A stretch of 64,000 bases of DNA from Paracoccus versutus. GTDB lineage: Bacteria > Pseudomonadota > Alphaproteobacteria > Rhodobacterales > Rhodobacteraceae. The notes beneath the pieces are model-generated. The model was not told the origin of the DNA. It was given only the letters and a program-made list of their open reading frames with translations, and did no database searches. Below, piece by piece: positions 40,495-64,000 of the stretch. Positions within the stretch are counted from its first letter, which is position 1. The number at the start of each line of letters is the position of its first letter. The stretch spans positions 1 to 64,000 of the forward strand of contig NZ_JRKO01000006.1 in assembly GCF_000763885.1 (NCBI RefSeq), read 5' to 3'. Made by a program: the position numbers and the translations under genes.

Positions 40495-40549
40495 GCTATC
40501 CTCCATTGCATGAATGATGGTCGAGACCGTCCGGCAGCGCGTAAGCGCG

Positions 40550-41437: not shown

Positions 41438-41608
41438 GACGGACCCCGTTGATGCAAAGGGCGGCCATTGACTCCCAAGCCTGAGATTCCTGGTTGTGTC
41501 GGGCAGGGGTGGGTCTACGGACAAGTCCTTGAAAGTGCATTTGATTATCGGTCCTTGATTTTTTCTATTGCGCACAGAACCCGCAGAGGCAGGTTGTCGT
41601 TGTGCATG

Positions 41609-41631
41609 AAAAAACAGCCCCTCCGAGGCTG
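41609..41631 (-). terminator. Intrinsic terminator of the first GMC gene
   Basis: On the minus strand CAGCC-N7-GGCTG is followed by a run of six T. It lies about 40 bp after the GMC stop codon, separating that gene from the EthD gene. Confidence 0.7.
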
Positions 41632-41668
41632 CGGGGCGGTTCCGGCCTCTGTACCGTGATGGTCGTCA

Positions 41669-43305: not shown

Positions 43306-43322
43306 CAATGGTTCTTCCATTG
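43306..43322. promoter_or_regulatory. Operator copy 1 of the 39-64 kb regulon
   Basis: CAATGGTTCTTCCATTG has perfect 6-bp arms (CAATGG/CCATTG) around 5 bases. Its right end runs into TTGACC, a possible -35 box for the aldehyde dehydrogenase gene with CATAAC 16 bp further on. It lies between two divergent catabolic genes. Matching sites occur at 45022, 48727 and 57086. Confidence 0.75.
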
Positions 43323-43377
43323 ACCTATGTGGTATGTCAATCATAACTTTCACAAGTTTCACGCGGCGGGAGGTAAT

Positions 43378-44820
43378 ATGAGCGCTGTTGATTATCCGAA
43401 TTCCGAACTGCTGATCGCGGGCGTCTGGCGCCAGGGGGCCGACAACGCAACGTATGAGGTGTCCAATCCCGCGACGGGCCGCGTGATCGGCAAAACGGCC
43501 CAGGTTGGGGCCGGTGATCTTGATGAAGTCGCTGCCGCCGCCTGGACTGGCTTTCTGGCCTGGCGCGACGTGCCGGCCCATGATCGCAGCCTGAAATTGC
43601 GGGCGGCGGCGCAACGGTTGCGCGATCAGGCAAACCAGATCGGGCATGTCATCACGCTGGAGCAGGGCAAGCCGCTGACTGAGGCCGTCGGTGAGGTGCT
43701 GACGTCCGCGGACGTCATCGACTGGTGTGCCGAAGAGGCCAAGCGCACCTATGGTCGGGTGATTCCGCCGCGCAATCCGCAAGCCCGGCAAATGGTCCTG
43801 CGCGAACCCATTGGCCCGGTGCTGGCGATCACGCCATGGAATTTTCCCATGTTGCAGGCCGCACGCAAGCTGTCCTCGGCTCTGGCGGCGGGGTGCTCGG
43901 TGATTCTGATGGGTTCGCGCAACACGCCTGCGACGCCTGCGCTTCTGATCCAGGCCTTTGTCGAGGCCGGAATTGGTGCCAATGCAGTGCAGGTCATCTC
44001 GGGCGATCCACAGGCCGTCAGCGAAAGGCTGATTGCCGATCCGCATGTCCGCAAGGTGACCTTCACCGGCTCGACCGAAGTCGGAAAGCGCATCGCCGCG
44101 CTGGCGGGGCAGCATATGAAACCCGCGACGATGGAACTAGGCGGCCATGCGCCGGTGCTGATCTTTGACGATGCCGATCTGGATCGGGCGATTCCCGAAC
44201 TTGTCGGGTTCAAGTTCATGAATGCGGGTCAGGTCTGCGCCTCGCCGACGCGGCTTTTGGTGCAGGCGGGCATTCACAAACGCTTCGTCGAGAAATGGAC
44301 CGAAGCGGCACGGCAGATCGTCGTCGGCGATGGGCTGGCGGCCGGTACCGGCATGGGGCCTTTGGTGAGCGATGCACGCAAGAATGCTGTTGATTCGCTG
44401 ATCGAAGAGGCGGCGAGTTGTGGCTCTCCCGTGGTCAGGGAGCGAGCGGGCGACCTGCCCCGGCTGGGCAGCTTCCTTGCGCCGACCCTGCTGACCGATG
44501 TGCCCCCTCATGCGCGGATCATGAACGAGGAGCCCTTTGGCCCGGTGGCCGCAGTGTTCCGTTTCGAAACCGCCGACGAGGCCATCGCCGAGGCCAATCG
44601 GTTGAGCTATGGCCTGTGCGCTTATGCCTATACAGGAGAACTGTCGCTGGCTAACCGCATCACCCGCGAAGTCGAGGCCGGTTCGGTGTCCGTGAACCAC
44701 ATCAACGTCGCCCTGCCGGAGGTGCCGTTTGGCGGGATCCGGGATTCGGGCTATGGCAGCGAGGGCGGCGCCGAGACGACCGAGCCCTATCTGGTGACGA
44801 AGTTCGTCTCGATGCTTTGA
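43378..44820 (+). CDS. NAD(P)-dependent aldehyde dehydrogenase (GabD-like)
   Basis: 480 residues. TPWNFPMLQAARKLSSALAA, FTGSTEVGKRIAALAGQHMK, the general-base Glu in MELGGHAPVLIFDDAD and the nucleophilic Cys in MNAGQVCASPTRLL are standard for the superfamily. NTPATPALLIQAF is unusual in place of the common K-P-(A/S)-E-x-T-P, because the coenzyme-binding Lys appears as Arg-Asn (SRNTPAT); this may alter cofactor binding. The ATG follows GGGAGG. The divergent GMC enzyme probably produces its aldehyde. Confidence 0.9.
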   Translation: MSAVDYPNSELLIAGVWRQGADNATYEVSNPATGRVIGKTAQVGAGDLDEVAAAAWTGFLAWRDVPAHDRSLKLRAAAQRLRDQANQIGHVITLEQGKPLTEAVGEVLTSADVIDWCAEEAKRTYGRVIPPRNPQARQMVLREPIGPVLAITPWNFPMLQAARKLSSALAAGCSVILMGSRNTPATPALLIQAFVEAGIGANAVQVISGDPQAVSERLIADPHVRKVTFTGSTEVGKRIAALAGQHMKPATMELGGHAPVLIFDDADLDRAIPELVGFKFMNAGQVCASPTRLLVQAGIHKRFVEKWTEAARQIVVGDGLAAGTGMGPLVSDARKNAVDSLIEEAASCGSPVVRERAGDLPRLGSFLAPTLLTDVPPHARIMNEEPFGPVAAVFRFETADEAIAEANRLSYGLCAYAYTGELSLANRITREVEAGSVSVNHINVALPEVPFGGIRDSGYGSEGGAETTEPYLVTKFVSML

Positions 44821-45143
44821 ACGCATCCGCTGTCCGGGCTGCGCATGGCTCGGACAGATTCCATCTTTTGCAGATCGGCAAGCGACGCCACGTCGCCAAA
44901 AAACCCCCGGTGACACTTGCCGAGACGCTGCATGTTCGGGGTGCCTCGCCGTCGCATTGGACCTCTTCAGATTTCGCTCTCCATACTCGGCATCGTGTTT
45001 TGTGCGGGTGCAAGCAAAACCTAATGGTTGATCCATTGACAAATGCTTTCCGCTGGCACATGATAGCTTCGAGGGCATGGGATCTTCCGGCCCGGATGGG
45101 GCTGACGGTCCACTGTAACCGGCTGATATGAATGGAGGAGTGC
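44821..45143 (+). promoter_or_regulatory. Promoter region of the gentisate-dioxygenase-like gene, with operator copy 2
   Basis: This 323-bp gap contains no gene. TAATGGTTGATCCATTG at 45022-45038 is the second copy of the shared operator and overlaps a -35 TTGACA (45036-45041), followed after 17 bp by CATGAT as a -10 box. The overlap predicts repression. GGAGG precedes the start at 45144. Confidence 0.7.
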
Positions 45144-46184
45144 ATGGCTGAGGTGCAGATGGTTGATGCCGATGAGCGGCGGACGCTGATTGCCGAACTT
45201 GAGAAATACAATTTTCGGGTCAGCTCGCCCGACCGCCCCTTGTTCACCAAGGAGCCGAATTCCTCCATGGTGCCGGTCCTGTGGAAGGCCGGGGATATTG
45301 CCGAACAGCTGGAACAGATCGGCTCGCGGCTGAAGCTTCAGGCGGGGGGCGCGCGCCGGACCCTGCAACTCAGCAATCCTGGACTGCCTTATGGCACGAC
45401 GCCGACCTTTTGGGTGTCGATCCAGTATATCCTGCCCGGAGAGATCGCGACGGCGCACCGTCACATGGCCTCGGCATTGCGCTTCATCATGCAGGGCGAG
45501 GGGGCCGATACCACCGTCGACGGCGAAATGTATCAGATCAACGAGGGCGATCTGGTGCTGACCCCGAACTGGACCTGGCACGATCACGAACACAAGGGCA
45601 GCGAGCCGATGGTCTGGATCGATGTCCTGGACATCTCGCTGGTGCGGTCCTGCCATGCCGTGTTCTTCGAGGATTTTGAATCCGCGCGGCAGACACCCAA
45701 TGTGATCCCGGACGAATCCTATCGCCGCTTCGGCAGCGGCCTGATGCGGCCGCTGCGCCGGCCCGAGCCGAAGAAATACAGCCCGCTGCTCGCCTATACT
45801 AGCGCCATGTCTGAAGAGGCGCTGCGGCAGGCAGCGGGGCTCGACCCGGATCCCTATGACGACGTGATCCTGGAATATCAGAACCCTTTGACCGGCGAGT
45901 CGGCCCTGCCGACCATCGGCACGCGGCTGCAGATGCTGCGTCCGGGCACGCACACGCGCGCGCATCGTCACACTGGCAGTGCCGTCTATTACGTGGTGCG
46001 GGGCGAGGGGGCGACGATCATCGACGGCCGGCGTTTCGAGTGGGCCAAGGGCGATTTCCTGGCGCTGCCGCCTTGGGCCGTGCATGAGCATCTCAATACC
46101 GGGCAAAGCGAAGCCGTATTGTTCCAGGTGAACGACATCCCCGCCCTCGAGAAGCTCGGCTTCTATCGCGAGCAGCCGGCCTGA
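45144..46184 (+). CDS. Gentisate 1,2-dioxygenase-like bicupin enzyme
   Basis: 346 residues with two cupin domains. The first has AHRHMASALRFIMQGEGADT and LTPNWTWHDHEHKG, which provide the Fe(II)-binding histidines of gentisate/salicylate 1,2-dioxygenases; the second has AHRHTGSAVYYVVRGEGATI and ALPPWAVHEHLN. Family enzymes open the ring of gentisate or 1-hydroxy-2-naphthoate between C1 and C2 to give maleylpyruvate-type products. The next gene, 76 bp downstream, encodes a flavoprotein hydroxylase that could make the dihydroxy substrate. Start chosen by the upstream GGAGG. Confidence 0.88.
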   Translation: MAEVQMVDADERRTLIAELEKYNFRVSSPDRPLFTKEPNSSMVPVLWKAGDIAEQLEQIGSRLKLQAGGARRTLQLSNPGLPYGTTPTFWVSIQYILPGEIATAHRHMASALRFIMQGEGADTTVDGEMYQINEGDLVLTPNWTWHDHEHKGSEPMVWIDVLDISLVRSCHAVFFEDFESARQTPNVIPDESYRRFGSGLMRPLRRPEPKKYSPLLAYTSAMSEEALRQAAGLDPDPYDDVILEYQNPLTGESALPTIGTRLQMLRPGTHTRAHRHTGSAVYYVVRGEGATIIDGRRFEWAKGDFLALPPWAVHEHLNTGQSEAVLFQVNDIPALEKLGFYREQPA

Positions 46185-46260
46185 CGCGGAACCTCGTCGC
46201 GGGCCTTGCCCGCAGTCACCAGGCGCGCGCTGCGCCTGCCACCATTCAGGGAAGATAAGT

Positions 46261-47907
46261 ATGGACACTCCTGTTTTGATCGTCGGCGCTGGCCCGATCG
46301 GCCTGGCGCTCGCCGGGGATCTGGGCTTTCGCGGCACCGCTTGCACGCTGGTCGAGCGGAGCGACGGCCAGATCCTGCAACCGAAAATGGACATGGTCGG
46401 CATCCGCACCATGGAGTTCTGCCGCCGCTGGGGCATCGTGCCCTGGGTGGAAAGTGCCGGCTACAACCGCGCCTATCCGCAGGATTGCGCCTGGGTGACG
46501 TCGCTGACCGGCCACGAATTCGGGCGCGAGGTCTTTCCGGCCCCGCAGGACGAGAAATGCCCGGCGCAAAGCCCGCAGAAGCGCGAGCGCTGCCCGCAGA
46601 ATTTCTTCGACCCGGTGCTGCGCCGCTTTGCCAGCCAGTATCCGTATGTCTCCCTGCGCTACCGCACCGAGCTGATCGGCTTCGTCGAGGACGAGGACGG
46701 CGTTCTCAGCACGCTGCGCGACCTCGAAAGCGGCGAGACCTTCGAGATCCGCTCGCAATACCTGGTCGGCACGGATGGCGGGGCCAGCAGCGTGCGGCAG
46801 GCGCTGGGCATCGCCATGTCGGGCGAGCCGACCCTGACCTATACCACCAATGTGGTGTTCCGCACCGAAAACCTGGAAGGGCTGCACCACCTGCGCCCGG
46901 CCTATCGCTATATCTTCATCGGCCCCGAGGGAACCTGGGCCACGCTCGTCGCCATCAACGGCCGCGACCAGTGGCGCTTCTCGCTGGTGGGGGACGACAG
47001 GATGCAGACCCATTCCGAGGAGGTGATGCGCGCAGCCATCATCCGCGCGGTCGGCAAGGAGTTCGATTTCGAGATCCTGTCGTTGTTGCCCTGGGTCCGT
47101 CGCCAGCTAGTCGCGGACAGCTATGGCACCAAGCGGGTTTTCCTGGCCGGGGACGCGGCGCACCTGACCTCGCCCACCGGCGGCTTTGGGATGAACACGG
47201 GCATCCAGGACGCGGTGAACCTGTCGTGGAAGCTTGCCGCGACGATCGAGGGCTGGGGCGGACCGAACCTGCTGGGCTCCTACGAGGCAGAGATGCGGCC
47301 GGTGGCGATCCGCAACGTGTCCGAGGCGACCGGCAACCTCAAGCGGATGCTGTCGCCGCGGGTGGTTTCTCCGGGCCCCGAGATGTTCGCCGACACCCCC
47401 GAAGCGGAGCAGAAGCGCCGCGAGTTCGGCGAGGCCTATACCGAGCTGATGAAGCGGGAATGGTTCTCGATCGGCATCCATCTTGGCTATATGTTCGAGG
47501 GCTCGCCCATCGTCATTCCCGACGGCACGCCCCGTCCCGAGGATACCGTGCAGACCTATACCCCGACCTCGCGGCCCGGCTCGCGCGCGCCGCATGTCTG
47601 GCTTGAGCCCGGCAAGTCGATTCTCGACCTGTTCGGCAAGGAATTCGTCCTGTTGCGCTTTGGCGAGGATGCGCCCTCCGGCGACGGGCTTGCCACTGAG
47701 GCGGCAGCGCGCGGGGTGCCGTTCCGGGTCGTCGCCATCGACAATGCCGAAGCCGCGGCACTTTACGAACGCCGGCTCGTCCTGGTGCGGCCGGACGGGC
47801 AAGTGGTCTGGCGCGACGACGCCGCCCCGGCGCGGCCGAGCGAGATCATCGACGCCGTGCGCGGCATCGCCGACGGCCAGGCGCTGGGCATCCGCAGTGC
47901 GGCCTGA
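46261..47907 (+). CDS. FAD-dependent aromatic hydroxylase (PheA/TfdB/MhpA family)
   Basis: 548 residues. The Rossmann motif VLIVGAGPIGLALAGDLGFR opens the protein; YLVGTDGGASSVRQALGI is the DG motif and KRVFLAGDAAHLTSPTGGFG with MNTGIQDAVNLSWKL the GD motif of class A flavoprotein monooxygenases. A C-terminal thioredoxin-like domain, ending with RLVLVRPDGQVVWR, is typical of the phenol-hydroxylase-like subgroup. It hydroxylates an aromatic ring with NAD(P)H and O2. Being directly downstream of the gentisate dioxygenase-like gene, it probably forms that enzyme's substrate; the exact phenolic acid is not predictable. Confidence 0.9.
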   Translation: MDTPVLIVGAGPIGLALAGDLGFRGTACTLVERSDGQILQPKMDMVGIRTMEFCRRWGIVPWVESAGYNRAYPQDCAWVTSLTGHEFGREVFPAPQDEKCPAQSPQKRERCPQNFFDPVLRRFASQYPYVSLRYRTELIGFVEDEDGVLSTLRDLESGETFEIRSQYLVGTDGGASSVRQALGIAMSGEPTLTYTTNVVFRTENLEGLHHLRPAYRYIFIGPEGTWATLVAINGRDQWRFSLVGDDRMQTHSEEVMRAAIIRAVGKEFDFEILSLLPWVRRQLVADSYGTKRVFLAGDAAHLTSPTGGFGMNTGIQDAVNLSWKLAATIEGWGGPNLLGSYEAEMRPVAIRNVSEATGNLKRMLSPRVVSPGPEMFADTPEAEQKRREFGEAYTELMKREWFSIGIHLGYMFEGSPIVIPDGTPRPEDTVQTYTPTSRPGSRAPHVWLEPGKSILDLFGKEFVLLRFGEDAPSGDGLATEAAARGVPFRVVAIDNAEAAALYERRLVLVRPDGQVVWRDDAAPARPSEIIDAVRGIADGQALGIRSAA

Positions 47908-47932
47908 GCGCGGCATTGATCGGCAGCTTCGG

Positions 47933-47961
47933 GGCGCGGCGGGAAACCCGCCGCGCCTTTT
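47933..47961 (+). terminator. Intrinsic terminator after the hydroxylase gene
   Basis: GGCGCGGCGGG and CCCGCCGCGCC are perfect 11-bp complements separated by AAA and followed by TTTT. It lies between the convergent hydroxylase and dienelactone hydrolase genes. Confidence 0.88.
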
Positions 47962-47982
47962 CATCTATCTGCCCGACCCGGC

Positions 47983-48660
47983 CTACGGCTTGCCGTCCAT
48001 ATGACGGTCGAAAAAGGCCAGGCTGCGCTGCCAGGCCAGGGTGGCGGCGGGTTCCACATAGCTGGCCCGCTCGGTGCAGCCGAAGCCGTGCCCGGCTTCA
48101 TAGATGAAGACCTCGACATCCGGGCGGGCGTTCCGCACCTGCAGCGCGTCCTCCAGCGGGATGGCGTGATCCTTGTCGCCATAGTGCAACTGCACGGGAC
48201 AGTTCAACCGGGCATCGAGATCGGCGGCGATTCCGGTGCCGTACCAGCCGACCGCGGCATCGAAAGCCGTGCTGCGCGAAGCGGCCTGCCAGCACAGCGC
48301 GCCGCCCATGCAGAAGCCGATGATTCCCTTGCGTCCGGGCAGCAGCGCTGCCGCCGCCAGAATGTCGTCGAGCGCCAGGGCCTCGTCGAGTTGGCGCCGG
48401 ATTGCCATGCCCTCCTGCGCCTCCTCGCGGCTGTAACCGCGCTCATAGCCGCGGCTGACGCGGTCGAAAAGAGCAGGGGCAATGACGCGATAGCCCAGAT
48501 CAGCCAGTTTTTGGCACACCGAGCGGACGTAGTGATTCACGCCGAAAATTTCCTGCACCACGACCAGCGAACGGGTGGCTGCGGGCGGGCCGGCGCACCA
48601 GGCCGAAAGGACGTGGCCGTCGCTTGCGGTGACGTCGATAAAGCCGGGGGTTTTGTACAT
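47983..48660 (-). CDS. Dienelactone-hydrolase-family protein
   Basis: 225 residues. The catalytic Cys is in IGFCMGGALCWQ, the Asp in LHYGDKDHAIP and the His in IYEAGHGFGC, the ordered triad of dienelactone hydrolases; LVVVQEIFGVNHYVRSVCQK is the conserved Glu-containing loop. Members hydrolyse dienelactones or other cyclic esters formed during ring cleavage. It is divergent from a CoA-transferase gene and shares an operator with it (48727-48743). Confidence 0.88.
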   Translation of the reverse strand: MYKTPGFIDVTASDGHVLSAWCAGPPAATRSLVVVQEIFGVNHYVRSVCQKLADLGYRVIAPALFDRVSRGYERGYSREEAQEGMAIRRQLDEALALDDILAAAALLPGRKGIIGFCMGGALCWQAASRSTAFDAAVGWYGTGIAADLDARLNCPVQLHYGDKDHAIPLEDALQVRNARPDVEVFIYEAGHGFGCTERASYVEPAATLAWQRSLAFFDRHMDGKP

Positions 48661-48726
48661 AGGGCACCTTTCCGAAAGTCCTGTCTATTTCTGCTTGACT
48701 TCTATCCAGCAGTTGAGGATAAAAGT

Positions 48727-48743
48727 CAAAGGTTGAGCCAATG
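48727..48743. promoter_or_regulatory. Operator copy 3 of the 39-64 kb regulon
   Basis: CAAAGGTTGAGCCAATG fits the shared pattern CAWWGG-N5-CCAWTG. On the minus strand it runs into TTGACT (-35) with GATAGA 17 bp downstream, for the dienelactone hydrolase gene. It also lies about 43 bp upstream of the CoA-transferase start on the plus strand. Confidence 0.65.
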
Positions 48744-48785
48744 TGCCATTCGGTCGATGCCGGAGGCGAGAAAGAAGGAGGCGTC

Positions 48786-49970
48786 ATGACCGGTGCTTTG
48801 GATGGAATCCGCGTGCTGGACTTCACGCAGATGATGAACGGCCCCATGGGGACCATGCTTCTTGCGGATTTCGGGGCGGACGTGATCAAGGTCGAGCCGC
48901 CGCAGGGCGACACGTTCCGCAAGACAGGCGAGACGTTCCTGGGCGACGATGCTGCCTATTTCCTGACGATGAACCGCAACAAGCGCAGCGTCGTCCTTGA
49001 TCTCGGCACGGAGGCAGGCAAGCGAGCCGCCCGCGAACTGGCGAAGCATGTCGACATCGTCGCGGTGAACTTCCGTCCGGGCATCGCCGAGAAGCTGGGG
49101 ATCACCTACGAGGAACTCAGCGCCGAGAATCCCGGGCTGATCTATTGCCAGACCACCGCCTTCGGGACTGAAGGCGACGACAGCACCCGTCCGGGCATGG
49201 ATCCGGTGATCCAGGCGTTGTCTGGCCTGATGCAATTGACCGGCGACGAAAAGACCGGTCCGCTGAAGACCGGCATGCCCTATTGCGACCTGATCACGCC
49301 CCTGCTTTCAACCATCGGCGTCATGGCCGCCCTGAACGCCCGGCAGAAGACCGGCAAGGGCCAGCGCATCGACCTGTCGATGATGGACGCCACCATCTAC
49401 AGCATGATCCCGCGCGATTCCTATTACTTCTCGACGGGCGATACGCCGGCCCGCATGGGCAATGCGCATTGGCAGATCGTGCCCTATAATACCTATGAGA
49501 CCTCCGACAAGCGCCACGTCATGATCATCGCCCATACCGACAAGTTCTGGCGGGCGTTGGCGGGGGCGGTGGGGGCTGACGATCTCCTGGCGGATGAGCG
49601 CCTTGCGACCAAGGAGGGGCGTCTGGCCCATCGCGAGATCGTCGATGCCGGGCTGGCGCGAGCCTTTGCAAAAAAGCCCATGGCGCATTGGAACAAGGTG
49701 CTTCTGGAAGCCGGGACCATGTTCGCGCCGGTGGCGACCTTCGACGAGGTTTTCGCGGATCCGCGCATCCAGCGCGACTTGGTGGTCGAACTGGATCATC
49801 CGCGGGCGGGCCGCTTCAAGCTTCTGGCCAATCCGCTGAAGCTTTCGGGAACGCCGCTGAGAAAGGTCTCGCGCCCGCCGGTCCTGGGGGAGCATACCGA
49901 AGAGGTTCTGGCTGAATTCGGCATCGTCCTGGACAGGGAAGGCCGGACCGGTAGGCTTGAGGAGGCCTGA
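48786..49970 (+). CDS. Family III CoA-transferase (CaiB/BaiF type), copy 1
   Basis: 394 residues. LDFTQMMNGPMGTMLLADFG then ADVIKVEPPQGDTFRK is the family's N-terminal signature; the catalytic Asp is in TRPGMDPVIQALSGLM. Such enzymes transfer CoA between carboxylic acids, usually to activate a catabolic substrate. The ATG at 48786 follows AGGAGG; an upstream in-frame ATG is within the operator region. The P450 operon begins 87 bp downstream on the same strand. A second CaiB gene lies at 57.1 kb. Confidence 0.92.
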   Translation: MTGALDGIRVLDFTQMMNGPMGTMLLADFGADVIKVEPPQGDTFRKTGETFLGDDAAYFLTMNRNKRSVVLDLGTEAGKRAARELAKHVDIVAVNFRPGIAEKLGITYEELSAENPGLIYCQTTAFGTEGDDSTRPGMDPVIQALSGLMQLTGDEKTGPLKTGMPYCDLITPLLSTIGVMAALNARQKTGKGQRIDLSMMDATIYSMIPRDSYYFSTGDTPARMGNAHWQIVPYNTYETSDKRHVMIIAHTDKFWRALAGAVGADDLLADERLATKEGRLAHREIVDAGLARAFAKKPMAHWNKVLLEAGTMFAPVATFDEVFADPRIQRDLVVELDHPRAGRFKLLANPLKLSGTPLRKVSRPPVLGEHTEEVLAEFGIVLDREGRTGRLEEA

Positions 49971-49988
49971 CCGGCGCCGATACGACAA

Positions 49989-50008
49989 GCTGCATCGGTC
50001 GATGCAGC
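49989..50008. repeat. 9-bp-arm palindrome upstream of the P450 gene
   Basis: GCTGCATCG and CGATGCAGC are perfect complements separated by GT. A 2-base loop makes a transcript hairpin unlikely, so a DNA-binding site is more probable. It lies 50 bp upstream of the P450 start and differs from the shared operator. Confidence 0.7.
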
Positions 50009-50057
50009 GACCCGAATAACGGGACCTGGGTGGACAGGTTCCAAGGAGGAGAAAGCA

Positions 50058-51302
50058 ATGTACCCGTCGTCCATTGACACGTCAGAGCGTTCCGTCGGTG
50101 AAGACGGGCTGCCGAACTTTCCGATGCGGCGTTGTCCCTTTGCGCCGCCGGCGGAATATGCCGAAATCCGCAAGAAGCCGGGGCTGAGCAAGGTCCGCAT
50201 GCCGGACGGCGCCTGGGCGTGGATCGTCACCCGCCATAACGAGGTCAAGCAGGTGCTGGGCGACAACCGCTTTTCCACGGTGCCCTCGACGCCCAACTAT
50301 CCGATGATCGCGCCGGCGCGCGCGTCGCTGCTACGCAACGAGCATCCCGCGACGCTGATCCGCATGGACCCACCCGAACACACCAAGCATCGCCGGATGT
50401 TCTCGCGCGAGTTCATGGTCAAGACCGTCGAGGCGATGAAGCCCTATCTGAACGATCTCGTCGACCGGCTGCTCGACGAGATGGAGGCCAAGGGCGGCAG
50501 CTGCGATTTTGCCGAGGTCTTCGCCCTGGCGCTGCCGACCACAGTGATCTCGAACATGCTGGGCGTGCCCTACGAGGACCAGGAATATTTCCACGAACGC
50601 GCCCTGCAGAAGCTCGACCTGAAGGCGGACCCTGAAGTTCCGCTGCGGGCCGGGCGCGAAATGCGCGAGTATCTGGACGGGCTGATCACCCGCAAGCTCG
50701 AGGCGGCCGAGCCGGCAGACGACCTGATCACCCGGATGCTGCACAACTACATGCTGCCCGGCCACATCACCCGCGCGGAGGCGCTGGCGACCGCCGAGCT
50801 TCTGCTGATGGGCGGGCACGAGACCACGGCGAACATGATCGCCCTTGGCTGCCTTTCGCTGCTGCTGCACCCCGATCAAAAGGACGCACTGGTGGCCGAC
50901 CCGTCGCTGGTGGTGGGCGCGGTCGAGGAGATGCTGCGTTTCCACACCATCGTGCATTACAACGGTCCGCGGGTGGCGCTGGAGGATGTCGAGGTTGGCG
51001 GAACCCTGATCCGCAAGGGCGACGGGGTTTTGGCGCTGATCAGCGCCGCGAACCGTGACCCGGCCGCCTTCGACGATCCCGACCGCTTCGACATTCGCCG
51101 CAAGGCGCTGCATCATGTGGCCTTCAGCTTCGGTTCGCATCAATGTCTGGGCCAGGCCCTGGCGCGGGCCGAGCTGCAGATCGTGTTCAGCAAGCTGTTC
51201 CAGCGCTTCCCGAACCTGAAGCTTGCGGTCCCGGTCGAGGAGCTGGAATTCCGCTATGACGCTTTCGTCTACGGTATCGAAAAGCTCCCCGTCACCTGGT
51301 GA
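50058..51302 (+). CDS. Cytochrome P450, class I bacterial type
   Basis: 414 residues. The I-helix is LLMGGHETTANMIALG (acid-Thr pair, near 251), the K-helix EEMLRF supplies ExxR, and FSFGSHQCLGQALARAEL carries the haem-ligating Cys363. DPPEHTKHRRMFSREFMVK is the usual C-helix heme-contact stretch. The next two genes encode a 3Fe-4S ferredoxin and a ferredoxin reductase, so a complete monooxygenase system is present. Sequence style is close to actinobacterial-like soluble P450s. Substrate unknown; the following aldehyde dehydrogenase and GMC genes suggest that an alkyl or methoxyl carbon is hydroxylated and then oxidised. Confidence 0.93.
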   Translation: MYPSSIDTSERSVGEDGLPNFPMRRCPFAPPAEYAEIRKKPGLSKVRMPDGAWAWIVTRHNEVKQVLGDNRFSTVPSTPNYPMIAPARASLLRNEHPATLIRMDPPEHTKHRRMFSREFMVKTVEAMKPYLNDLVDRLLDEMEAKGGSCDFAEVFALALPTTVISNMLGVPYEDQEYFHERALQKLDLKADPEVPLRAGREMREYLDGLITRKLEAAEPADDLITRMLHNYMLPGHITRAEALATAELLLMGGHETTANMIALGCLSLLLHPDQKDALVADPSLVVGAVEEMLRFHTIVHYNGPRVALEDVEVGGTLIRKGDGVLALISAANRDPAAFDDPDRFDIRRKALHHVAFSFGSHQCLGQALARAELQIVFSKLFQRFPNLKLAVPVEELEFRYDAFVYGIEKLPVTW

Positions 51303-51358
51303 CGGGGGAAACGCCCGAAGCGCCCCGGCGCCCGCGGCTGCCAATGAGGAGGATGGCA

Positions 51359-51562
51359 ATGAAAATCACGGTCGATATGGACAAGTGCATTGGCGCGGGG
51401 CTTTGCGTGGTCGCGGCTCCCCAGGTCTTTGCGCAGAACGACGATGACGGGCTGGTGATCGTGCTGAACGAGAACCCGCCTGCGGATCAGCACGAAGCGG
51501 TGCGCGAGGCGGCCCGCCTGTGCCCGGCTCTGGTCATCCATCTGCAGGACGACAATGACTGA
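51359..51562 (+). CDS. Small 3Fe-4S-type ferredoxin, P450 partner
   Basis: 67 residues: MKITVDMDKCIGAGLCVVAA then PQVFAQNDDDGLVIVL and RLCPALVIHL. The pattern C-x5-C-x(n)-CP, with Ala-Gly in place of the fourth Cys, indicates a [3Fe-4S] cluster as in actinobacterial P450 redox partners. GGAGG lies 6 bp upstream of the ATG at 51359. The gene overlaps the reductase gene by 8 bp. Confidence 0.9.
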   Translation: MKITVDMDKCIGAGLCVVAAPQVFAQNDDDGLVIVLNENPPADQHEAVREAARLCPALVIHLQDDND

Positions 51563-52793
51563 TTCCGAGATCGTGATCGTTGGGGCGGGACAGGCCGGCT
51601 ATCAGCTTGCCGGCGCTCTGCGAGATGCTGGCCACCGGGGCCAATTGGTCCTGATCGGGGACGAGGCGGAACTGCCCTACCAGCGCCCGCCGCTCTCCAA
51701 GGCGTTTCTCAGCGGCGCCATCGGCGCCGAGGCGCTGACCTTCCAGCAGCCGGTGCATTTCGAAAGCAAGGGGATCGACCTGCGAATCGGCACCCGGGCC
51801 GAGCGGCTGGACCGGGTGGGCCGCAGGTTGATTCTCGCCGATGGAAGCGACATCGGCTATGACAAGCTGGTGCTGGCGACCGGCGCGGCGAACCGCGTGC
51901 TGCCGGGTTCCGAAGGAATCGATGGTGTGCACAGCATCCGCACCATCGCTGATGCCCGCGCGATCCGGGAGCGGCTTGAGCGCAGCAGGAATGCCGTCGT
52001 CATCGGTGGCGGCTTCCTTGGCCTGGAATTCGCTGCCGTGGCGCGCGAATGGGGCTTGGCTGTCAGCATCGTCGAGGCCGGTCCGCGCCTGATGGGACGT
52101 GCCATATCGCAGCCGATGGCTGAGGCTTTCCGGGCACATCACGTCGCGCTGGGAAGCCAGCTTTTCCTGCAGGCCAAGGTCCGCCGGCTGATTGCCGAAG
52201 CCGGCGAGATCAGCGCCGTCGAACTCGAGGACGAGATCCTTCTGCCTGCCGATCTGGTCGTGGTCGGCATCGGAGTCGAGCCGCATGTCGCGTTGGCGCG
52301 GGATGCCGGGATCGATTGCGACAATGGCATTGTCGTTGATGATCGCCTTGCCACCAGCGATCCTTCCATCTTCGCGCTGGGCGATTGCGCGGTGTTCCCT
52401 TCGCGTTTCGCCCTGCAGCCGTCGCGGCTGGAGTCGATCCAGAACGCCATGGACCAGGCCCGGCATCTCGCGGCCGTGCTGACCGGCAAGCCCGCCGCAT
52501 ATGACGCGGTGCCATGGTTCTGGAGCGACCAGGGCGGCGCCAAGCTGCAGATCGCCGGCCTTGCGCAGGGAACCGACCGCGAGGTGCTGCGGGGCGATGT
52601 CTCCGGGATGAAATTCTCGGTCTTCTGCTATCGCGGCGATCGGCTGGTCGCGGTGGAATCCGCCAACCGGCCTGCCGATCATATGGCCGCGCGTCGCCTG
52701 CTGACGGCCGGGCTGTCGCCCACCCCCGAGCAGGCGGCCGATCCCGGCTTTGACCTGAAATCCCTGTTCGCCGCGGCGCAGCCCGCCGCGTGA
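51555..52793 (+). CDS. FAD-dependent ferredoxin reductase (putidaredoxin-reductase type)
   Basis: 412 residues. EIVIVGAGQAGYQLAGALRD binds FAD, ELPYQRPPLSKAFL is the conserved substrate loop, NAVVIGGGFLGLEFAAVARE is the NAD Rossmann motif and DPSIFALGDCAVFPSRF the second FAD motif. It passes electrons from NAD(P)H to the 3Fe-4S ferredoxin and so to the P450. The 8-bp overlap with the ferredoxin gene supports equimolar expression. Confidence 0.93.
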   Translation: MTDSEIVIVGAGQAGYQLAGALRDAGHRGQLVLIGDEAELPYQRPPLSKAFLSGAIGAEALTFQQPVHFESKGIDLRIGTRAERLDRVGRRLILADGSDIGYDKLVLATGAANRVLPGSEGIDGVHSIRTIADARAIRERLERSRNAVVIGGGFLGLEFAAVAREWGLAVSIVEAGPRLMGRAISQPMAEAFRAHHVALGSQLFLQAKVRRLIAEAGEISAVELEDEILLPADLVVVGIGVEPHVALARDAGIDCDNGIVVDDRLATSDPSIFALGDCAVFPSRFALQPSRLESIQNAMDQARHLAAVLTGKPAAYDAVPWFWSDQGGAKLQIAGLAQGTDREVLRGDVSGMKFSVFCYRGDRLVAVESANRPADHMAARRLLTAGLSPTPEQAADPGFDLKSLFAAAQPAA

Positions 52794-52815
52794 ACCGCAA
52801 CCAGGACGTGGACAG

Positions 52816-54306
52816 ATGACATTGCACCCCGGGCTTTCCGCCGACGCCGCCAGCTTCATTTCCGGCAGGCATCTGCTGCTGATCGACGGGCAATGGGTCA
52901 GCCCGAGCGAGGGGCGGCGCTTCGAGGTGTTCGATCCGGCGACGGGGGCCGTGGTCGCTGCCGCATCCGAGGCTAGGGCCGAGGATGTCGATCTGGCGGT
53001 GGCGGCGGCGCGCCGGGCGCTGGACGGGCCCTGGTCGCGCTTTTCGGGGCCCGAGCGGGCGCGGCTGCTGATGCGCCTTGCCGACCTGATCGAGGCCAAC
53101 GGCGAATTGCTGGCCCAGGTCGAGGTGGTCGACAACGGCAAGCCCCTAGCCCTAGCCCGGGCCGGCATTGCTGGCGTTGCCGAAATGGTGCGCTATTTCG
53201 CTGGCTGGACGACCAAGCTGAACGGCGAGACCGTCAAGGTTTCGCTGCCAGGCGAATGGCACGCCTTCACCAGCCATGTGCCGATCGGCGTGGTCGCGCA
53301 GATCATCCCGTGGAACTTTCCGCTGTCGATGGCGATCTGGAAGCTGGCGCCCGCTTTGGCGGTGGGCTGCACGGTGGTGCTGAAACCGGCCGAGCAAACA
53401 CCGCTCAGCGCGATCAAACTGGGCGAGCTGATCCTGGAGGCGGGGTTTCCGCCCGGCGTGGTGAACATCCTGACCGGCTTCGGCTCGGGCGCCGGTGCCG
53501 CGCTGGCCCGGCATCCGGGCGTGGACAAGGTCGCCTTTACCGGCTCGACCGGCACCGGCAAGAAGATTGTCGAGGCCGCGCTGGGGAACCTCAAGAAGGT
53601 CACGCTGGAACTGGGCGGAAAATCCCCCGTCTTCATTTTTCCCGATGCCGATATCGATGCGGCGATCCAAGGCGCGGCAAATGCCATCTTTCTCAACAGC
53701 GGGCAGGTCTGCTCGGCCGGCTCGCGGCTCTACGTCCATGAGCGGGTTTTCGACCAGGTGGTCGAAGGCGTGGCGGCGATCGGTGACAGCATGACGCTGG
53801 GGCACGGGCTGGACGCCGGAACGCAGCTGGGGCCGCTGATATCTGCGGTGCAGCGCGATCGGGTATCGGACTATATCGACAGCGGGCTGGCCGAGGGTGC
53901 CCGGATCGCGGGCTCGGGCGCCAAGCCGCAAAGTGAGGGATACTTCGTTGCGCCAACAGTCTTGGTCGATACCCGCCCCGACATGCGCGTCGTCCGCGAG
54001 GAGATCTTCGGCCCGGTGCTGGTGGCCCAGAAATTCGGCAAGGACGAGGACCTTGCCGTCTTGGCCCACACCGCGAACGATACAGAATACGGGCTGTTCG
54101 CTGGCATCTGGACCTCGGACATCGGCAGGGCGCTCCGCTTTGCGCGGCAGATCCGGGCCGGGTCCGTCTCGGTGAACGCGCATATGGTCAATGAGCCGGC
54201 GCTGCCCTTCGGCGGCTTCCGCCAATCCGGATGGGGCCGTGAGCGCGGGCGCGAGGTGCTGGAGCTTTATACCGAATTGCAGAGCGTGGCCATCAGGCTG
54301 GCCTGA
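52816..54306 (+). CDS. NAD-dependent aldehyde dehydrogenase, copy 2
   Basis: 496 residues. PWNFPLSMAIWKLAPALAVG, CTVVLKPAEQTPLSAIKLGE (coenzyme Lys in KPAEQTP), the general-base Glu in LELGGKSPVFIFPDAD and nucleophile Cys in LNSGQVCSAGSRLYV are all present, so it should be active. It resembles betaine/phenylacetaldehyde-type dehydrogenases. It lies 22 bp after the ferredoxin reductase gene and 29 bp before a GMC alcohol oxidoreductase gene, so it probably oxidises the aldehyde made in the P450-GMC steps. Confidence 0.93.
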   Translation: MTLHPGLSADAASFISGRHLLLIDGQWVSPSEGRRFEVFDPATGAVVAAASEARAEDVDLAVAAARRALDGPWSRFSGPERARLLMRLADLIEANGELLAQVEVVDNGKPLALARAGIAGVAEMVRYFAGWTTKLNGETVKVSLPGEWHAFTSHVPIGVVAQIIPWNFPLSMAIWKLAPALAVGCTVVLKPAEQTPLSAIKLGELILEAGFPPGVVNILTGFGSGAGAALARHPGVDKVAFTGSTGTGKKIVEAALGNLKKVTLELGGKSPVFIFPDADIDAAIQGAANAIFLNSGQVCSAGSRLYVHERVFDQVVEGVAAIGDSMTLGHGLDAGTQLGPLISAVQRDRVSDYIDSGLAEGARIAGSGAKPQSEGYFVAPTVLVDTRPDMRVVREEIFGPVLVAQKFGKDEDLAVLAHTANDTEYGLFAGIWTSDIGRALRFARQIRAGSVSVNAHMVNEPALPFGGFRQSGWGRERGREVLELYTELQSVAIRLA

Positions 54307-54335
54307 AAGGGATGGCCAAAAGGGCCGGGAGCAAG

Positions 54336-56048
54336 ATGTCGGACTATGACTTCATCATCGTGGGCGGCGGCTCGGCGGGCTGTGTCTTGGCCAACCGCCT
54401 GTCGGCGCGGGCCGCGAACCGGGTGCTGCTGTGCGAGGCCGGGCCGGATACGCCCGTGGGTGAGGAGCCGCCGGCGATCCTCGACAGCTATCCGGGCACG
54501 GCCTATCTGAACCCGGGGTTTCTCTGGCCCGATCTGATGGTCACGACCGAAGGCGTGGCTTCGTCGAACAGCGCGGCGCCGCCGCGGGCGCGCAAATACG
54601 AACAGGCGCGGATCATGGGCGGCGGCTCCTCGGTCAACGGCCAGTTCTTCAATCGCGGCGGTCCCTCGGATTACGACGAATGGGCGGCGCGGGGGGCGGC
54701 CGGCTGGGATTGGGACTCGGTCCTGCCCTGGTTTCGCAAGGTCGAGACCGATCTCGATTTCGACGGGCCGCTGCATGGAAAGGACGGGCCGGTCCCGGTC
54801 CGGCGGATCTTCCCCGATGCCTGGCCCGGCCATGCCAAGGCGCTGGCCGAAGCGATTGCCGAGCAGGGCTATCGCTACCTGCCCGATCAGAACGGGCCGT
54901 TCGAGGACGGTTACTTCCCCATCGCCATCTCGAACCGGGACGAGCGGCGGGTATCCTCGGCCATGGCCTATCTGGACGATGCGACCCGACGGCGCGCCAA
55001 TCTTCACATCCGCTCGGATGCGACGGTCAGCCGGCTGGTGTTCGACGCCGGGCGCTGCACCGGCATCTGCCTGGTCAGGCCGGACGGGCAGGAGGAGCAG
55101 CATCGCGCCGGAACCGTGATCCTCAGCGCCGGGGCCCTGCAATCGCCGGCGATCCTGATGCGGTCGGGGATTGGACCGGCCGCGCATCTGGCCGAGAACG
55201 GGATCGAGCTGCGGCAGAACCTGCCCGGCGTGGGGCAGAACCTGATGGAACATCCGTCCATCGCGCTGGCCGCTTTCTTGCGCCGCGCGTCGCGGCTGAA
55301 CGGGGGACCGAGCCGGCGGCATATCTATGTCGGCTGGCGCTATTCCTCGCAGATCGGCGGTGCGCCGGCCGGCGACATGTTCGTGGCCGGGGTGACCAAG
55401 ACTTCTTGGCACGCGGTAGGCGACCGGATCGGCACCATGCTGATGTATGTCAACAAACCCCATTCCGATCGGGGCGCGGTGCGGCTGCGCGGCGCGGACT
55501 GGCGGGTGAACCCGGCCGTCGATTTCAACCTGCTCTCGGACAACCGCGATCTGGACCGGCTGACCGATGGGTTTCGTCGCATGGCTGCCGTCCAGCTGAG
55601 TGGAGCGATGCAGGCCGCCACCGCCAACCCCTTCCCGGCCAGCTATTCCGAGAAGGTCCGCCAGATCGGCATGCTGAGCCGCAAGAACAAGCTGCTGACC
55701 GATGCGCTTGCGACCCTGCTGGACGGGCCTGCACCGCTGCGCGACTTTCTGATGCGCCGGGTGGTCGCGGGCGGTCCGGGCCTGCATGAGCTGCTGGCCG
55801 ATCCGCAGGCGCTGGAGACTTTCGTACGCGGCGCCTGCGTCGGGGTCTGGCACCCGTCCTGCACCTGCCGGATGGGCGCCGCCGACGATCCGCTGGCGGT
55901 GCTTGACCCGCAGGGCCGGGTGCGCGGCATCGGCGGGCTGCGCGTCTGCGACGCCTCGATCTTTCCGGTGATCCCCTCGGGCAACATCAACTTCCCGACC
56001 ATGATGGCGGCCGAGAAGATCGCCGATTCCATCCTGTCGGGCGCATAG
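54336..56048 (+). CDS. GMC-family FAD oxidoreductase, copy 2
   Basis: 570 residues from the ATG at 54336 (GGGAG upstream; an earlier in-frame ATG at 54312 is less likely). FIIVGGGSAGCVLANRLSAR binds FAD, RIMGGGSSVNGQFFNRGGPS is GMC signature 1 and LSAGALQSPAILMRSGIGPA signature 2. The catalytic His is in GVWHPSCTCRMG and the Asn in IPSGNINFPTMMAA. It is probably an alcohol dehydrogenase acting after the P450. It differs clearly from the GMC protein at 41.7 kb, so the two probably have different substrates. Confidence 0.92.
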   Translation: MSDYDFIIVGGGSAGCVLANRLSARAANRVLLCEAGPDTPVGEEPPAILDSYPGTAYLNPGFLWPDLMVTTEGVASSNSAAPPRARKYEQARIMGGGSSVNGQFFNRGGPSDYDEWAARGAAGWDWDSVLPWFRKVETDLDFDGPLHGKDGPVPVRRIFPDAWPGHAKALAEAIAEQGYRYLPDQNGPFEDGYFPIAISNRDERRVSSAMAYLDDATRRRANLHIRSDATVSRLVFDAGRCTGICLVRPDGQEEQHRAGTVILSAGALQSPAILMRSGIGPAAHLAENGIELRQNLPGVGQNLMEHPSIALAAFLRRASRLNGGPSRRHIYVGWRYSSQIGGAPAGDMFVAGVTKTSWHAVGDRIGTMLMYVNKPHSDRGAVRLRGADWRVNPAVDFNLLSDNRDLDRLTDGFRRMAAVQLSGAMQAATANPFPASYSEKVRQIGMLSRKNKLLTDALATLLDGPAPLRDFLMRRVVAGGPGLHELLADPQALETFVRGACVGVWHPSCTCRMGAADDPLAVLDPQGRVRGIGGLRVCDASIFPVIPSGNINFPTMMAAEKIADSILSGA

Positions 56049-56075
56049 GCCCGACCGCCCCGGCATTCAAAGGCA

Positions 56076-56098
56076 AGGCCCCGCGCTCTGCGGGGCCT
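56076..56098. terminator. Bidirectional terminator hairpin
   Basis: AGGCCCCGC and GCGGGGCCT are perfect 9-bp complements with a 5-base loop, between the convergent GMC and C-C lyase genes. No long T-run follows on either strand. Confidence 0.75.
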
Positions 56099-56107
56099 GC
56101 TATCGTT

Positions 56108-57007
56108 TCAGGGCAGCGCCGTGGCGATGATCGAGGCGTCCAGGGCCTCGAACTCGTGATAGCCGATGGTGTCGTAAAGCTCGGCCCGGGTCTGCATCTG
56201 CTCCAGTATCGCCTTGGTGGCACCGGTGTCGCGAATCGTCGCGTAAAGCTGTTCCTGCGCACGGGCGGCGACGCGCAGCGAGCTGACCGGCCAGATCACC
56301 ATGCTGTAGCCCAGCTCCTGGAACTCCTGCGCCGTCAGAAAGGGCGTGCGGCCGAACTCGGTCATGTTGGCCAGAAGCGGTGCGTCCACCTGCCGGGCGA
56401 ATTCGCGGAACATCTCGGGCGTGGTCAGCGCCTCGGGGAAGATCGCATCCGCGCCCGCCTCGAGATAGAGCTTCGCGCGGGCCACAGCGCCCTCCATGCC
56501 CTCGCTGGCGGCAGCATCGGTGCGGGCGACGATGTAGAGATGCCGGCGCGCCTTGGCCGCCGCGGCGATCTTGGCCGCCATGTCCTGTGGCGCGGCCAGC
56601 TTCTTGTCGTTCAGATGCCCGCATTTCTTGGGCAGCAACTGGTCTTCCAGATGCACGGCCGCCGCGCCCGCATCCTCGAAGGCGCGGACCATGTGCATGA
56701 CGTTCAGTGCCTCGCCATAGCCGGTGTCGCCGTCGACCAGAACCGGCAGCCCCGATGCGCGCGCGGTCTGCCGGATGAAGAAGCAGACATCCTCGACCGA
56801 GATGATGCCAAGATCCGGCAGGCCCATGGACGCGCTCATCGCCGCCCCGGACAGATAGGCGGCCTGGAAGCCCGCGCGCTTGACCTGGATCGCGGCCAGG
56901 CCGTTATGCGCGCCCGGCAATTGCAGGATGTCCTGCGATTCGACGAGCGCGCGAAAGCGTTCGCCGGCGGGTGCTGTCTCAAGACTTCCGGCAAGCAGAT
57001 ATGTCAT
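56108..57007 (-). CDS. Isocitrate lyase/PEP mutase-family C-C lyase (methylisocitrate-lyase-like)
   Basis: 299 residues, a TIM-barrel of the ICL/PEPM superfamily. LPVLVDGDTGYGEALNVMHM contains the Mg-binding Asp residues, LLPKKCGHLNDKKL the catalytic KKCGH loop and IVARTDAAASEGMEGAVARA the family's R-T-D box. Relatives cleave 2-methylisocitrate, dimethylmalate or similar hydroxy-diacids, or decarboxylate oxaloacetate. The ATG follows AAAGGAG. It is divergent from the second CoA-transferase gene and shares operator copy 4. Downstream of ring cleavage it may split a branched C5-C7 diacid. Confidence 0.88.
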   Translation of the reverse strand: MTYLLAGSLETAPAGERFRALVESQDILQLPGAHNGLAAIQVKRAGFQAAYLSGAAMSASMGLPDLGIISVEDVCFFIRQTARASGLPVLVDGDTGYGEALNVMHMVRAFEDAGAAAVHLEDQLLPKKCGHLNDKKLAAPQDMAAKIAAAAKARRHLYIVARTDAAASEGMEGAVARAKLYLEAGADAIFPEALTTPEMFREFARQVDAPLLANMTEFGRTPFLTAQEFQELGYSMVIWPVSSLRVAARAQEQLYATIRDTGATKAILEQMQTRAELYDTIGYHEFEALDASIIATALP

Positions 57008-57085
57008 GGTGTTCTCCTTTCTGGCCAGGAACGGCCGAAGCAAATCATGCGAATGAGACTTTACAGCATGAATGGGATAAAGTAT

Positions 57086-57102
57086 CAATGGTTCATCCAA
57101 TG
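57086..57102. promoter_or_regulatory. Operator copy 4 of the 39-64 kb regulon
   Basis: CAATGGTTCATCCAATG fits CAWWGG-N5-CCAWTG. On the minus strand it leads into TTGATA with TGTAAA 17 bp downstream, for the C-C lyase gene. It is 20 bp upstream of the CoA-transferase start, so one site probably controls both directions. Confidence 0.7.
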
Positions 57103-57121: not shown

Positions 57122-58261
57122 ATGACGATCGAAAGCCCTACCATCGCCGACCGCCCCCTGAGCGGGATCACAGTGATCGAAACATCGAGTTTTCTGACCG
57201 GCCCGTTCGCGTCGATGATGCTGTCGGACCTGGGGGCGGACGTCATCAAGGTCGAGCCGCCCGGGGGCGACGGCTTTCGCCGGTTCGGCCATAATCGCGA
57301 CGGGTTTGGCGCCTCGTGGACCAATGCCAACCGCGGCAAGCGCAGCATCGTCATCGACCTGAAGACGGCCGAGGGCATGGCGCGGCTGAAGCATCTGCTG
57401 ACGACCGCCGATGTGTTGATCGAGAACTGGCGCCCGCGTGTTTCCGAATCGCTGGGCCTGGGCGAGGATGTGGTGCGCGAGCTTAATTCGCGGCTGATCC
57501 GGCTGTCGATCAACGGCTTCGGCAAAAGCGGCGCGCTTGCCAATGCCCCGGCCTTCGACTCGCTGATCCAGGGCCGCACCGGCATCGTCGCCTCCGAGGG
57601 CCGCAACGGCATGCCTGCCGTGACGCCCTTCAACATGGTCGACAAGGTGACCGGCACGTTCGGCGCCCAGGCGGTTCTGGCCGCGCTTTACGAGCGCGAG
57701 CGCACCGGCAAGGGCGCGGTGATCCAGCTGCCGATGCTGGACGTGATGGGCTATTTCAATTTTCCCGACATGTTCCAGCACCGCACCTTCCAGAACGACC
57801 GCAGCGATTGGAAGCCGCCGGCGTCGCAGGTACTCGCGACCTCGGATGGCTATGTCGTGATCTCGCCCGCGAACGGGCAGCAGATGTCCAAGACCCTCAA
57901 CGCCATCGAGCGCCCGGAGTGGAAGGAGGACTTCAAGCGGATGCCCGATCCCGTCGCGATGGCGAATGAATTCTTCCGCCGCGTGGGCGAGGTGGTCGTG
58001 CAGAAGGACACGAAGCACTGGCTGCGCGTCTTCGCCGAGCAGGACGTGCCGGCCGCGCCGGTATTCAGCCTGGACGAGTTCCTTCAGGATGGGCAGGTGG
58101 CCCATAACCGGATCTTCAGCAAAGTCGACTCGCATATCGGCCCGATCCGCACGGCGCGGCATCCCGCGATCTTTGACGACCGACTGATGACGGCGCGCTC
58201 GGGTCCGCCGGCCATTGGCGAACACGATGCCGAGATCGCCCCGGCCGGAGGTGAGTCATGA
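57122..58261 (+). CDS. Family III CoA-transferase (CaiB/BaiF type), copy 2
   Basis: 379 residues. LSGITVIETSSFLTGPFASM then LSDLGADVIKVEPPGGDGFR is the N-terminal signature; the catalytic Asp lies in NAPAFDSLIQGRTGIV. It is distinct from copy 1 at 48.8 kb, being closer to the mesaconyl/citramalate-like CoA-transferase style. The stop overlaps the start of an FAH-family gene by 4 bp. The gene probably starts a long operon that also includes the LIV-type transporter. Confidence 0.92.
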   Translation: MTIESPTIADRPLSGITVIETSSFLTGPFASMMLSDLGADVIKVEPPGGDGFRRFGHNRDGFGASWTNANRGKRSIVIDLKTAEGMARLKHLLTTADVLIENWRPRVSESLGLGEDVVRELNSRLIRLSINGFGKSGALANAPAFDSLIQGRTGIVASEGRNGMPAVTPFNMVDKVTGTFGAQAVLAALYERERTGKGAVIQLPMLDVMGYFNFPDMFQHRTFQNDRSDWKPPASQVLATSDGYVVISPANGQQMSKTLNAIERPEWKEDFKRMPDPVAMANEFFRRVGEVVVQKDTKHWLRVFAEQDVPAAPVFSLDEFLQDGQVAHNRIFSKVDSHIGPIRTARHPAIFDDRLMTARSGPPAIGEHDAEIAPAGGES

Positions 58262-59157: not shown

Positions 59158-59228
59158 CGAAACCGTCGGAGCCCGGCGGCATGAACACGGGCCCGGTACA
59201 ACGGAACATGTCATCGAGGGAGGAGCGA

Positions 59229-60440: not shown

Positions 60441-60510
60441 CTGGCTCCGCGGCCTTCGCGATCTCGGTCGCGGAGGCCGCCCGAAACCAACCAAGAAGGG
60501 AGGCCGTTAC

Positions 60511-61392: not shown

Positions 61393-61397
61393 GCGAG

Positions 61398-63917: not shown

Positions 63918-63931
63918 AGGGCAGATACAGA

Positions 63932-64000
63932 TGGAAATGAATGCGGATGTGGTCGTCATGGGCGCGGGCCTGGCCGGCCTGGTCGCTGCCCGGCGCGCGG
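63932..64000 (+). CDS. FAD-dependent oxidoreductase, N-terminus only (runs off the window)
   Basis: Only 23 codons are visible: MEMNADVVVMGAGLAGLVAA then RRA. The dinucleotide-binding motif G-x-G-x-x-G with the preceding hydrophobic strand identifies an FAD-binding oxidoreductase. It is 14 bp after the LivF stop and presumably continues the catabolic operon. The subfamily cannot be decided from this piece; a second ATG (63938) is possible. Confidence 0.7.

Follow-up and report, generated by a model that had tools for sequence, protein, structure and literature searches.

A palindrome at nine sites, predicted operator of a self-regulating GntR/FCD repressor in a catabolic gene island of Paracoccus versutus

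A 64,000-nucleotide stretch of the Paracoccus versutus genome (assembly GCF_000763885.1), referred to here as the window, carries much of a catabolic gene island in which a 17-bp palindrome recurs. The window is bases 1-64000 of the 115,274-bp contig NZ_JRKO01000006.1 (contig C6), with which it shares its numbering, and the genome comprises 5.5 Mb on 187 contigs. Judging from the sequence, the palindrome is very probably the operator of a self-regulating GntR/FCD repressor of the FadR subfamily encoded within the island at 71841-72581. The motif, its positions, the regulator gene and the co-occurrence and co-variation of motif and regulator across species are read directly, and we infer binding, repression over activation, an inducer, the operon extents and a substrate. 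A preliminary description of this DNA had proposed one operator for one catabolic regulon, likely under a repressor, and the nine-site matrix and the related loci presented below support this proposal.

The preliminary description had reported the same 17-bp element at four places in the window. All four sequences were confirmed there, as imperfect palindromes (inverted repeats) of one motif with the consensus CAATGGTTSAWCCATTG (Table 1). Three of them (43306, 48727 and 57086) lie in divergent gaps as described, and the fourth (45022) lies in a tandem gap. Of the -35 boxes claimed for all four, -35-like ones are present at 43306 and 45022, but the boxes at 48727 and 57086 are -10-like. Five further copies were detected on the contig beyond the window by the same pattern search, at 67748, 71779, 72624, 73508 and 75350. 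Four sites over 25 kb was too small an estimate: nine sites extend over an island of about 40 kb, which does not end at 64 kb. The five outer sites end 2-45 bases upstream of the start codons used; for 57086, 67748, 72624 and 75350 the distance from site end to start codon is 2-19 bases (up to 26 should the last open reading frame, ORF, begin at its later start codon). Gapless alignment of the nine sites places the half-sites three bases apart, not four as in the HutC type. Operators of the FadR subfamily consist of TKGT and ACMA boxes with mostly three (or two) bases between GT and AC, and those of the HutC subfamily mostly have four (PMC4494728, in excerpt). The consensus TGGT-TSA-ACCA fits the FadR-subfamily rule TKGT-N3-ACMA.

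A symmetric matrix built from the nine sites scores them at 22.2-26.6, and the next best place on C6 reaches 11.8. In leave-one-out matrices the nine copies score 19.5-25.8 versus at most 12.5 anywhere else in the 115,274 bp. With only the four window sites for training, the matrix recovers the five outer copies at 18.2-22.3 (best other place 12.5); trained on the outer five, it recovers the four window sites at 20.0-24.1 (best other place 13.7). In 11 Mb of first-order random DNA with the composition of the contig, scores of at least 22 were found at no place, of at least 20 at 5 and of at least 17 at 17. The matrix was applied to C6 and to fetched pieces, and the remaining genome was scanned by patterns; the pieces of the own genome were fetched by the pattern and are therefore no neutral control. 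The core pattern WWNGGTTSAWCCWWWG without mismatches gave 7 strand-matches at 6 sites in the whole genome, all in the island. Allowing one mismatch raises the count to 21, of which 15 fall in the nine island sites and 6 elsewhere; the reversed pattern gave 5 in all.

The regulator gene starts 7.8 kb beyond the window end, inside the island, and operator 6 stands in front of it. A GntR gene with the same site in its promoter just past 64 kb had been predicted, and this is such a gene. The accompanying statement that an unseen repressor must act in trans gives way to a likely gene within the island itself. Its product matches the GntR winged helix-turn-helix domain (PF00392, 67.2 bits, cut-off 27) at the N-terminus and the FCD domain (PF07729, 72.1 bits, cut-off 24.3) at the C-terminus. 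No second DNA-binding regulator domain was found among the scanned genes of the 39-80 kb region, a scan that did not include all small ORFs; the AraC_binding match of the dioxygenase is to a cupin-fold model. The AlphaFold model of the regulator (mean pLDDT 85.0, pTM 0.63) has fold matches to NanR, LldR, FadR-DNA and Atu1419-DNA. NanR is also its best sequence relative in the PDB (E 7e-17), and no orthologue with known function was found. Residues R47 and R57, which we mapped to R35 and R45 of FadR (helix-turn-helix positions 28 and 38), are invariant in all 23 aligned sequences, and in our mapping R47, R57 and N58 occupy specificity-linked places. In PMC4494728 (in excerpt), G in the box is linked to an Arg at position 28, and A/T next to the centre to an Asn near position 39. 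These residue columns were kept from a scan of GntR upstream regions whose upstream result was discarded, because the regular expression demanded perfect TGGT/ACCA-type boxes and so missed imperfect sites.

Relatives of the regulator were collected in a genome-collection scan, from which the best 80 of 294 loci were kept. The closest comes from Paracoccus sp. MKU1 (L043, 98% identical), followed by seven Caballeronia/Paraburkholderia loci (L044-L049 and L071, 65-67%) and the rest of L043-L072 (36-58%). When these 30 loci were scanned with a matrix from the contig of the window alone, 26 contained at least one match scoring at least 13, and the reversed sequences of all 30 gave 2 in total. Matches of at least 17 numbered 31 in the ten loci with a regulator at least 53% identical (L044-L051, L071 and L123; at least two per locus), 5 in five loci at 47-52% and 28 in fifteen loci at 36-45%, each time with none in the reversed sequences. 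The 50 remotest FCD loci gave 1 such match versus 2 in reverse.

The same enzymes accompany the regulator in nine of the ten nearest Burkholderiales loci, and L051 shows the regulator alone. By local tblastn, the island enzymes are mostly 55-80% identical in the Caballeronia/Paraburkholderia loci (29-30% for the alcohol-dehydrogenase-like gene) and their gene order is different. In Paraburkholderia sp. PREW-6R (L123), 26 places match island proteins on a 40.7-kb replicon stretch, in a cluster that spans 37 kb and additionally has ETF subunits, a porin and an alpha/beta hydrolase. This stretch holds ten matches of at least 13 (none when reversed), all of which sit in gaps or at ORF edges by our judgement from the ORF list. 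Two paralogous regulators (1867-2586 and 20001-20711; 58% and 66% identical) are encoded in this one 37-kb cluster with the same motif.

We further found that the core of the motif changes together with the recognition helix. In L052, L054, L055 and L056 the helix reads SRN[ST]VRQ instead of SRNTVRE, with Gln for Glu, and each of the four loci contains the core GGGTSACCC with A/T flanks twice (8 in 79 kb). This core was found 0 times on C6 and in two other locus sets searched. Conversely, GGTTSAACC is absent from the four loci, against 4 occurrences on C6 and 5 and 11 in the two other sets. A matrix-free palindrome search agrees with the helix-linked core change. By sequence comparison, the pairing of GGGTSACCC with the Gln helix and of GGTTSAACC with the Glu helix is a natural specificity change. 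Note that the helix alone does not fix the core, since GGTTSAACC is also used by relatives with other helices, such as SRSGVRE. Palindromes of the TGGT...ACCA type with other centres (such as AGA, AGG, ATT and TCT) were observed near regulators 35-44% identical in L029-L042 (members of the family), L068 and L070, some of which have several adjoining GntR genes.

Within the genus, the regulator was found in 2 of 125 genomes (E <= 1e-60), and these are the only two with a site cluster. The exact core pattern gave 7 strand-matches in each of them, 1-3 in 24 of the other 123 genomes and none in 99. Among 394 genomes sampled across the family, one of them from a further member of the genus, only that of the window itself has a regulator more than 44% identical. 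This patchy distribution, together with nearest relatives in the Burkholderiales, points to horizontal transfer, by which the island was probably acquired. The PrpB-like gene may be a resident gene, having 81% DNA identity with Paracoccus prpB. In all ten Paracoccus plasmid records listed, out of 14, it is this gene or part of it that gives the 40-64 kb stretch its best match. We treat it only as a divergent neighbour.

According to the mechanism that we propose, a repressor dimer would occupy each of the nine operators when no inducer is at hand. Each operator overlaps or borders a -35, -10 or start region, and the bound repressor would block the promoters, its own included through operator 71779. 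An acidic substrate or early intermediate, either a carboxylate or its CoA ester, would bind to the FCD domain and release the repressor. Importers, the P450 system, alcohol and aldehyde oxidation, CoA activation, the flavin hydroxylase, gentisate-type ring cleavage and the follow-on enzymes would be induced jointly. Repression by occlusion is favoured because of the placement of the sites relative to the -35- and -10-like boxes and to the start codons. It is unlikely that the same regulator acts on the same operator as an inducer-dependent activator. CitO, in excerpted accounts, is a known FCD-family regulator inducing on ligand binding, and sites 43306 and 45022 touch a -35-like box. But a protein bound at 57086, 67748, 72624 or 75350, close to the start codons, or at 48727, 3' of the -10-like box, would block polymerase and not recruit it.

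Another owner of the sites was also considered, be it the HutC-type GntR/UTRA regulator at 37712-38407, one of the other 29 FCD genes or a protein of a different family. The UTRA gene is 4.9 kb from the first site and the genome gives 30 FCD matches, but the GT and AC of HutC-subfamily operators are mostly separated by four bases and not three (PMC4494728, in excerpt), and none of the nine sites adjoins the UTRA gene. The motif instead accompanies the 71841 gene across the Burkholderiales clusters and shifts with its recognition helix, which makes another owner very improbable. Chance likeness of AT-rich promoter DNA, with no common operator at all, is hardly credible. It could appeal to the loose pattern CAATGGTTNNNCCATTG with up to three mismatches, which gave 10 strand-matches in the window, 8 of them the four sites on both strands; shuffled windows had a mean of 3.86, and 2 of 100 shuffles reached 10. 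This count alone is modest evidence, and it is the matrix and the relatives that make the case strong. For the set of sites, chance is refuted by the cross-validated matrix, the random-sequence control, the genus-wide distribution and the relatives.

Several observations weigh against assigning all of these sites to the island-encoded repressor. Single sites are degenerate: under strict TKGT-N3-ACMA, both boxes are intact in one of nine (75350 only), at least one box is intact in eight, and 48727 has none; the AC dinucleotide is present in four of nine. Individual sites could be non-functional. The -10 and -35 assignments match the consensus at 8-10 of 12 positions and carry little weight alone. 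The TM-scores of the fold matches are only about 0.4-0.6. The 30 FCD-domain genes of the genome leave room for cross-binding, and four of the 30 relative loci (L060, L062, L067 and L069) have no match of at least 13. Six matches outside the island (on C1, C16, C70, C78, C99 and C2) score 13.7-17.8 by the matrix. Each falls within at least one open frame of at least 139 codons; they are probably coding matches, which does not exclude a role as sites.

The ligand pocket gives a hint to the effector of the proposed repressor. The metal ligands of DgoR are D146, H150 and H195 (PMC7674646, in excerpt), and in our reading of the alignment they correspond to N161, H165 and R207. One of the usual metal-binding His residues is thus replaced by R207, which is invariant in 23 of 23 sequences (the 71841-72581 protein and 22 relatives). 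Asn can act as a metal ligand, as in Atu1419 (PMC7797058, in excerpt), so it is the change from His to Arg, not the Asn, that argues against a metal. We infer that the effector may be a carboxylate bound directly.

Table 1. Predicted operators and genes of the island on contig C6
Feature	Position	Strand	Sequence	Context
Operator 1	43306..43322		CAATGGTTCTTCCATTG	divergent gap, GMC oxidoreductase (-) / aldehyde dehydrogenase (+); overlaps -35-like TTGACC 43320-43325
Operator 2	45022..45038		TAATGGTTGATCCATTG	tandem gap upstream of gentisate-type dioxygenase; overlaps -35-like TTGACA 45036-45041
Operator 3	48727..48743		CAAAGGTTGAGCCAATG	divergent gap, DLH-family hydrolase (-) / CoA-transferase (+); directly 3' of -10-like GATAAA 48718-48723
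Operator 4	57086..57102		CAATGGTTCATCCAATG	divergent gap, PrpB-like lyase (-) / CoA-transferase (+); overlaps -10-like TATCAA 57083-57088
Operator 5	67748-67764			outside window
Operator 6	71779-71795			outside window; ends 45 bases 5' of the regulator start codon
Operator 7	72624-72640			outside window
Operator 8	73508-73524			outside window
Operator 9	75350-75366			outside window
GntR/UTRA (HutC-type) regulator	37712-38407	+		left of island; rival candidate, judged not the regulator
Peripla_BP_6 binding protein, EthD-domain ORF, GMC oxidoreductase	39280..43276	-		divergent from operator 1
Aldehyde dehydrogenase	43378..44820	+		likely start 43378, behind GGGAGG
Gentisate-type cupin dioxygenase	45132..46184	+
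FAD-dependent aromatic hydroxylase (FAD_binding_3 + Rng_hyd_C)	46261..47907	+
Dienelactone-hydrolase (DLH)-family protein	47983..48660	-
CoA-transferase III, P450, ferredoxin, ferredoxin reductase, aldehyde dehydrogenase, GMC oxidoreductase	48786..56048	+		apparent operon behind operator 3
PEP-mutase/isocitrate-lyase family protein, PrpB-like	56108..57007	-		C-C lyase of the preliminary description
CoA-transferase III, FAH-family hydrolase, branched-chain-type ABC importer	57122..64000	+
TcuA-like FAD enzyme, Zn alcohol dehydrogenase	to 66455			beyond window
MFS	66442-67731	-		beyond window
ECH, SDR, ACAD, PrpF-family	67782-71751			beyond window
GntR/FCD regulator (FadR subfamily)	71841-72581	+		246 aa; Pfam
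MBL-fold hydrolase	72652-73512			beyond window
Acyl-CoA ligase	73561-75240			beyond window
Second ABC importer	75369-79473			beyond window

The enzyme set of the island, with CoA-transferases, ACAD, ECH, SDR, FAH, PrpF-like and PrpB-like proteins, looks like a route of side-chain oxidation followed by ring cleavage. The dioxygenase retains the three-His iron site together with Q108, R127, H162, W172, D174 and R83 (SDO numbering, by our own count in an alignment to 2phd), residues that are conserved in gentisate dioxygenases (PMC11264262, in excerpt). These kept residues support an ortho-hydroxy aromatic acid as the ring-cleavage substrate. The protein scores below the NCBIfam equivalog cut-off of TIGR02272 (267.8 vs 442.1 bits), and a substituted gentisate or salicylate is a candidate substrate. 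The best 120 of 2162 matches in a protein-name search carry only the names 'gentisate 1,2-dioxygenase' or 'cupin domain-containing protein'. Twenty proteins, the regulator among them, were compared with NCBIfam; in the matches listed, a cut-off was passed by the flavin hydroxylase alone, that of a generic subfamily (NF004780). Sequence relatives in the PDB are RebC/TfdB-like hydroxylases for the flavin hydroxylase, gentisate dioxygenases, and P450s including CYP105. Conceivable substrates include methyl-substituted gentisates, thymol-like phenols and terpenoids. No published work on the cluster or the operator was found among the papers listed in searches of the open-access PMC literature.

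More tentatively, the operators could mark a horizontally moving, undescribed pathway. The P450, GMC and aldehyde dehydrogenases would oxidise the side chain, the CoA-transferases with ACAD, ECH and SDR would shorten it, and the flavin hydroxylase and the gentisate-type dioxygenase would open the ring. A dedicated FCD clade would sense the acid directly, with one metal-binding His of its effector pocket replaced by the invariant Arg. We regard this combined picture as possible but somewhat doubtful.

Beside the island, peptide-type ABC transporter parts and an AstE/AspA-like deacylase are divergent from the GntR/UTRA regulator and form a separate small cluster with it (33063-38407). Just to the right of the island lies a type I restriction system with HsdR-like and specificity-domain genes (81746-87251). 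Elsewhere in the window are a luciferase-like monooxygenase (14205-15869) and a VanA-like Rieske oxygenase (30804-31844).

The operator assignment would bring the scattered oxidases, the P450, the ring-cleavage enzyme and both importers together in a single regulon that can be tested, with the regulator gene named and each operator placed exactly, and kin clusters are present in several Burkholderiales. The pathway is the most interesting part of the regulon, and a reporter on one of these promoters could disclose its substrate. Among the relatives, operator and recognition helix change in pairs, which offers a small natural data set on GntR specificity.

The operator network itself appears to be an ordinary kind of bacterial regulation, and the sequence comparisons support well a regulon that is new but of known type. 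The FadR-subfamily regulons of PdhR, LldR, FadR and DgoR likewise combine a winged helix-turn-helix and FCD-type protein with the odd palindrome TKGT-N3-ACMA (PMC4494728, in excerpt), whereas here nine operators lie within one island and the genes are of aromatic-type catabolism. AphS and BphS, of phenol and biphenyl catabolism, are GntR-family repressors, as is proposed here, and have several sites ahead of genes for aromatic catabolism, but their motif AwATATCGATATwT differs from the present one (PMC6449761, in excerpt). Atu1419 of Agrobacterium fabrum, in hydroxycinnamate catabolism, resembles the proposed repressor: it is an FCD repressor of a species-specific aromatic-acid region, represses its own gene and binds several palindromes (PMC7797058, in excerpt). 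It differs in its 10-bp palindrome, its VanR group and its Zn site of three His (same source); at one of these three positions, all 23 sequences aligned here have Arg.

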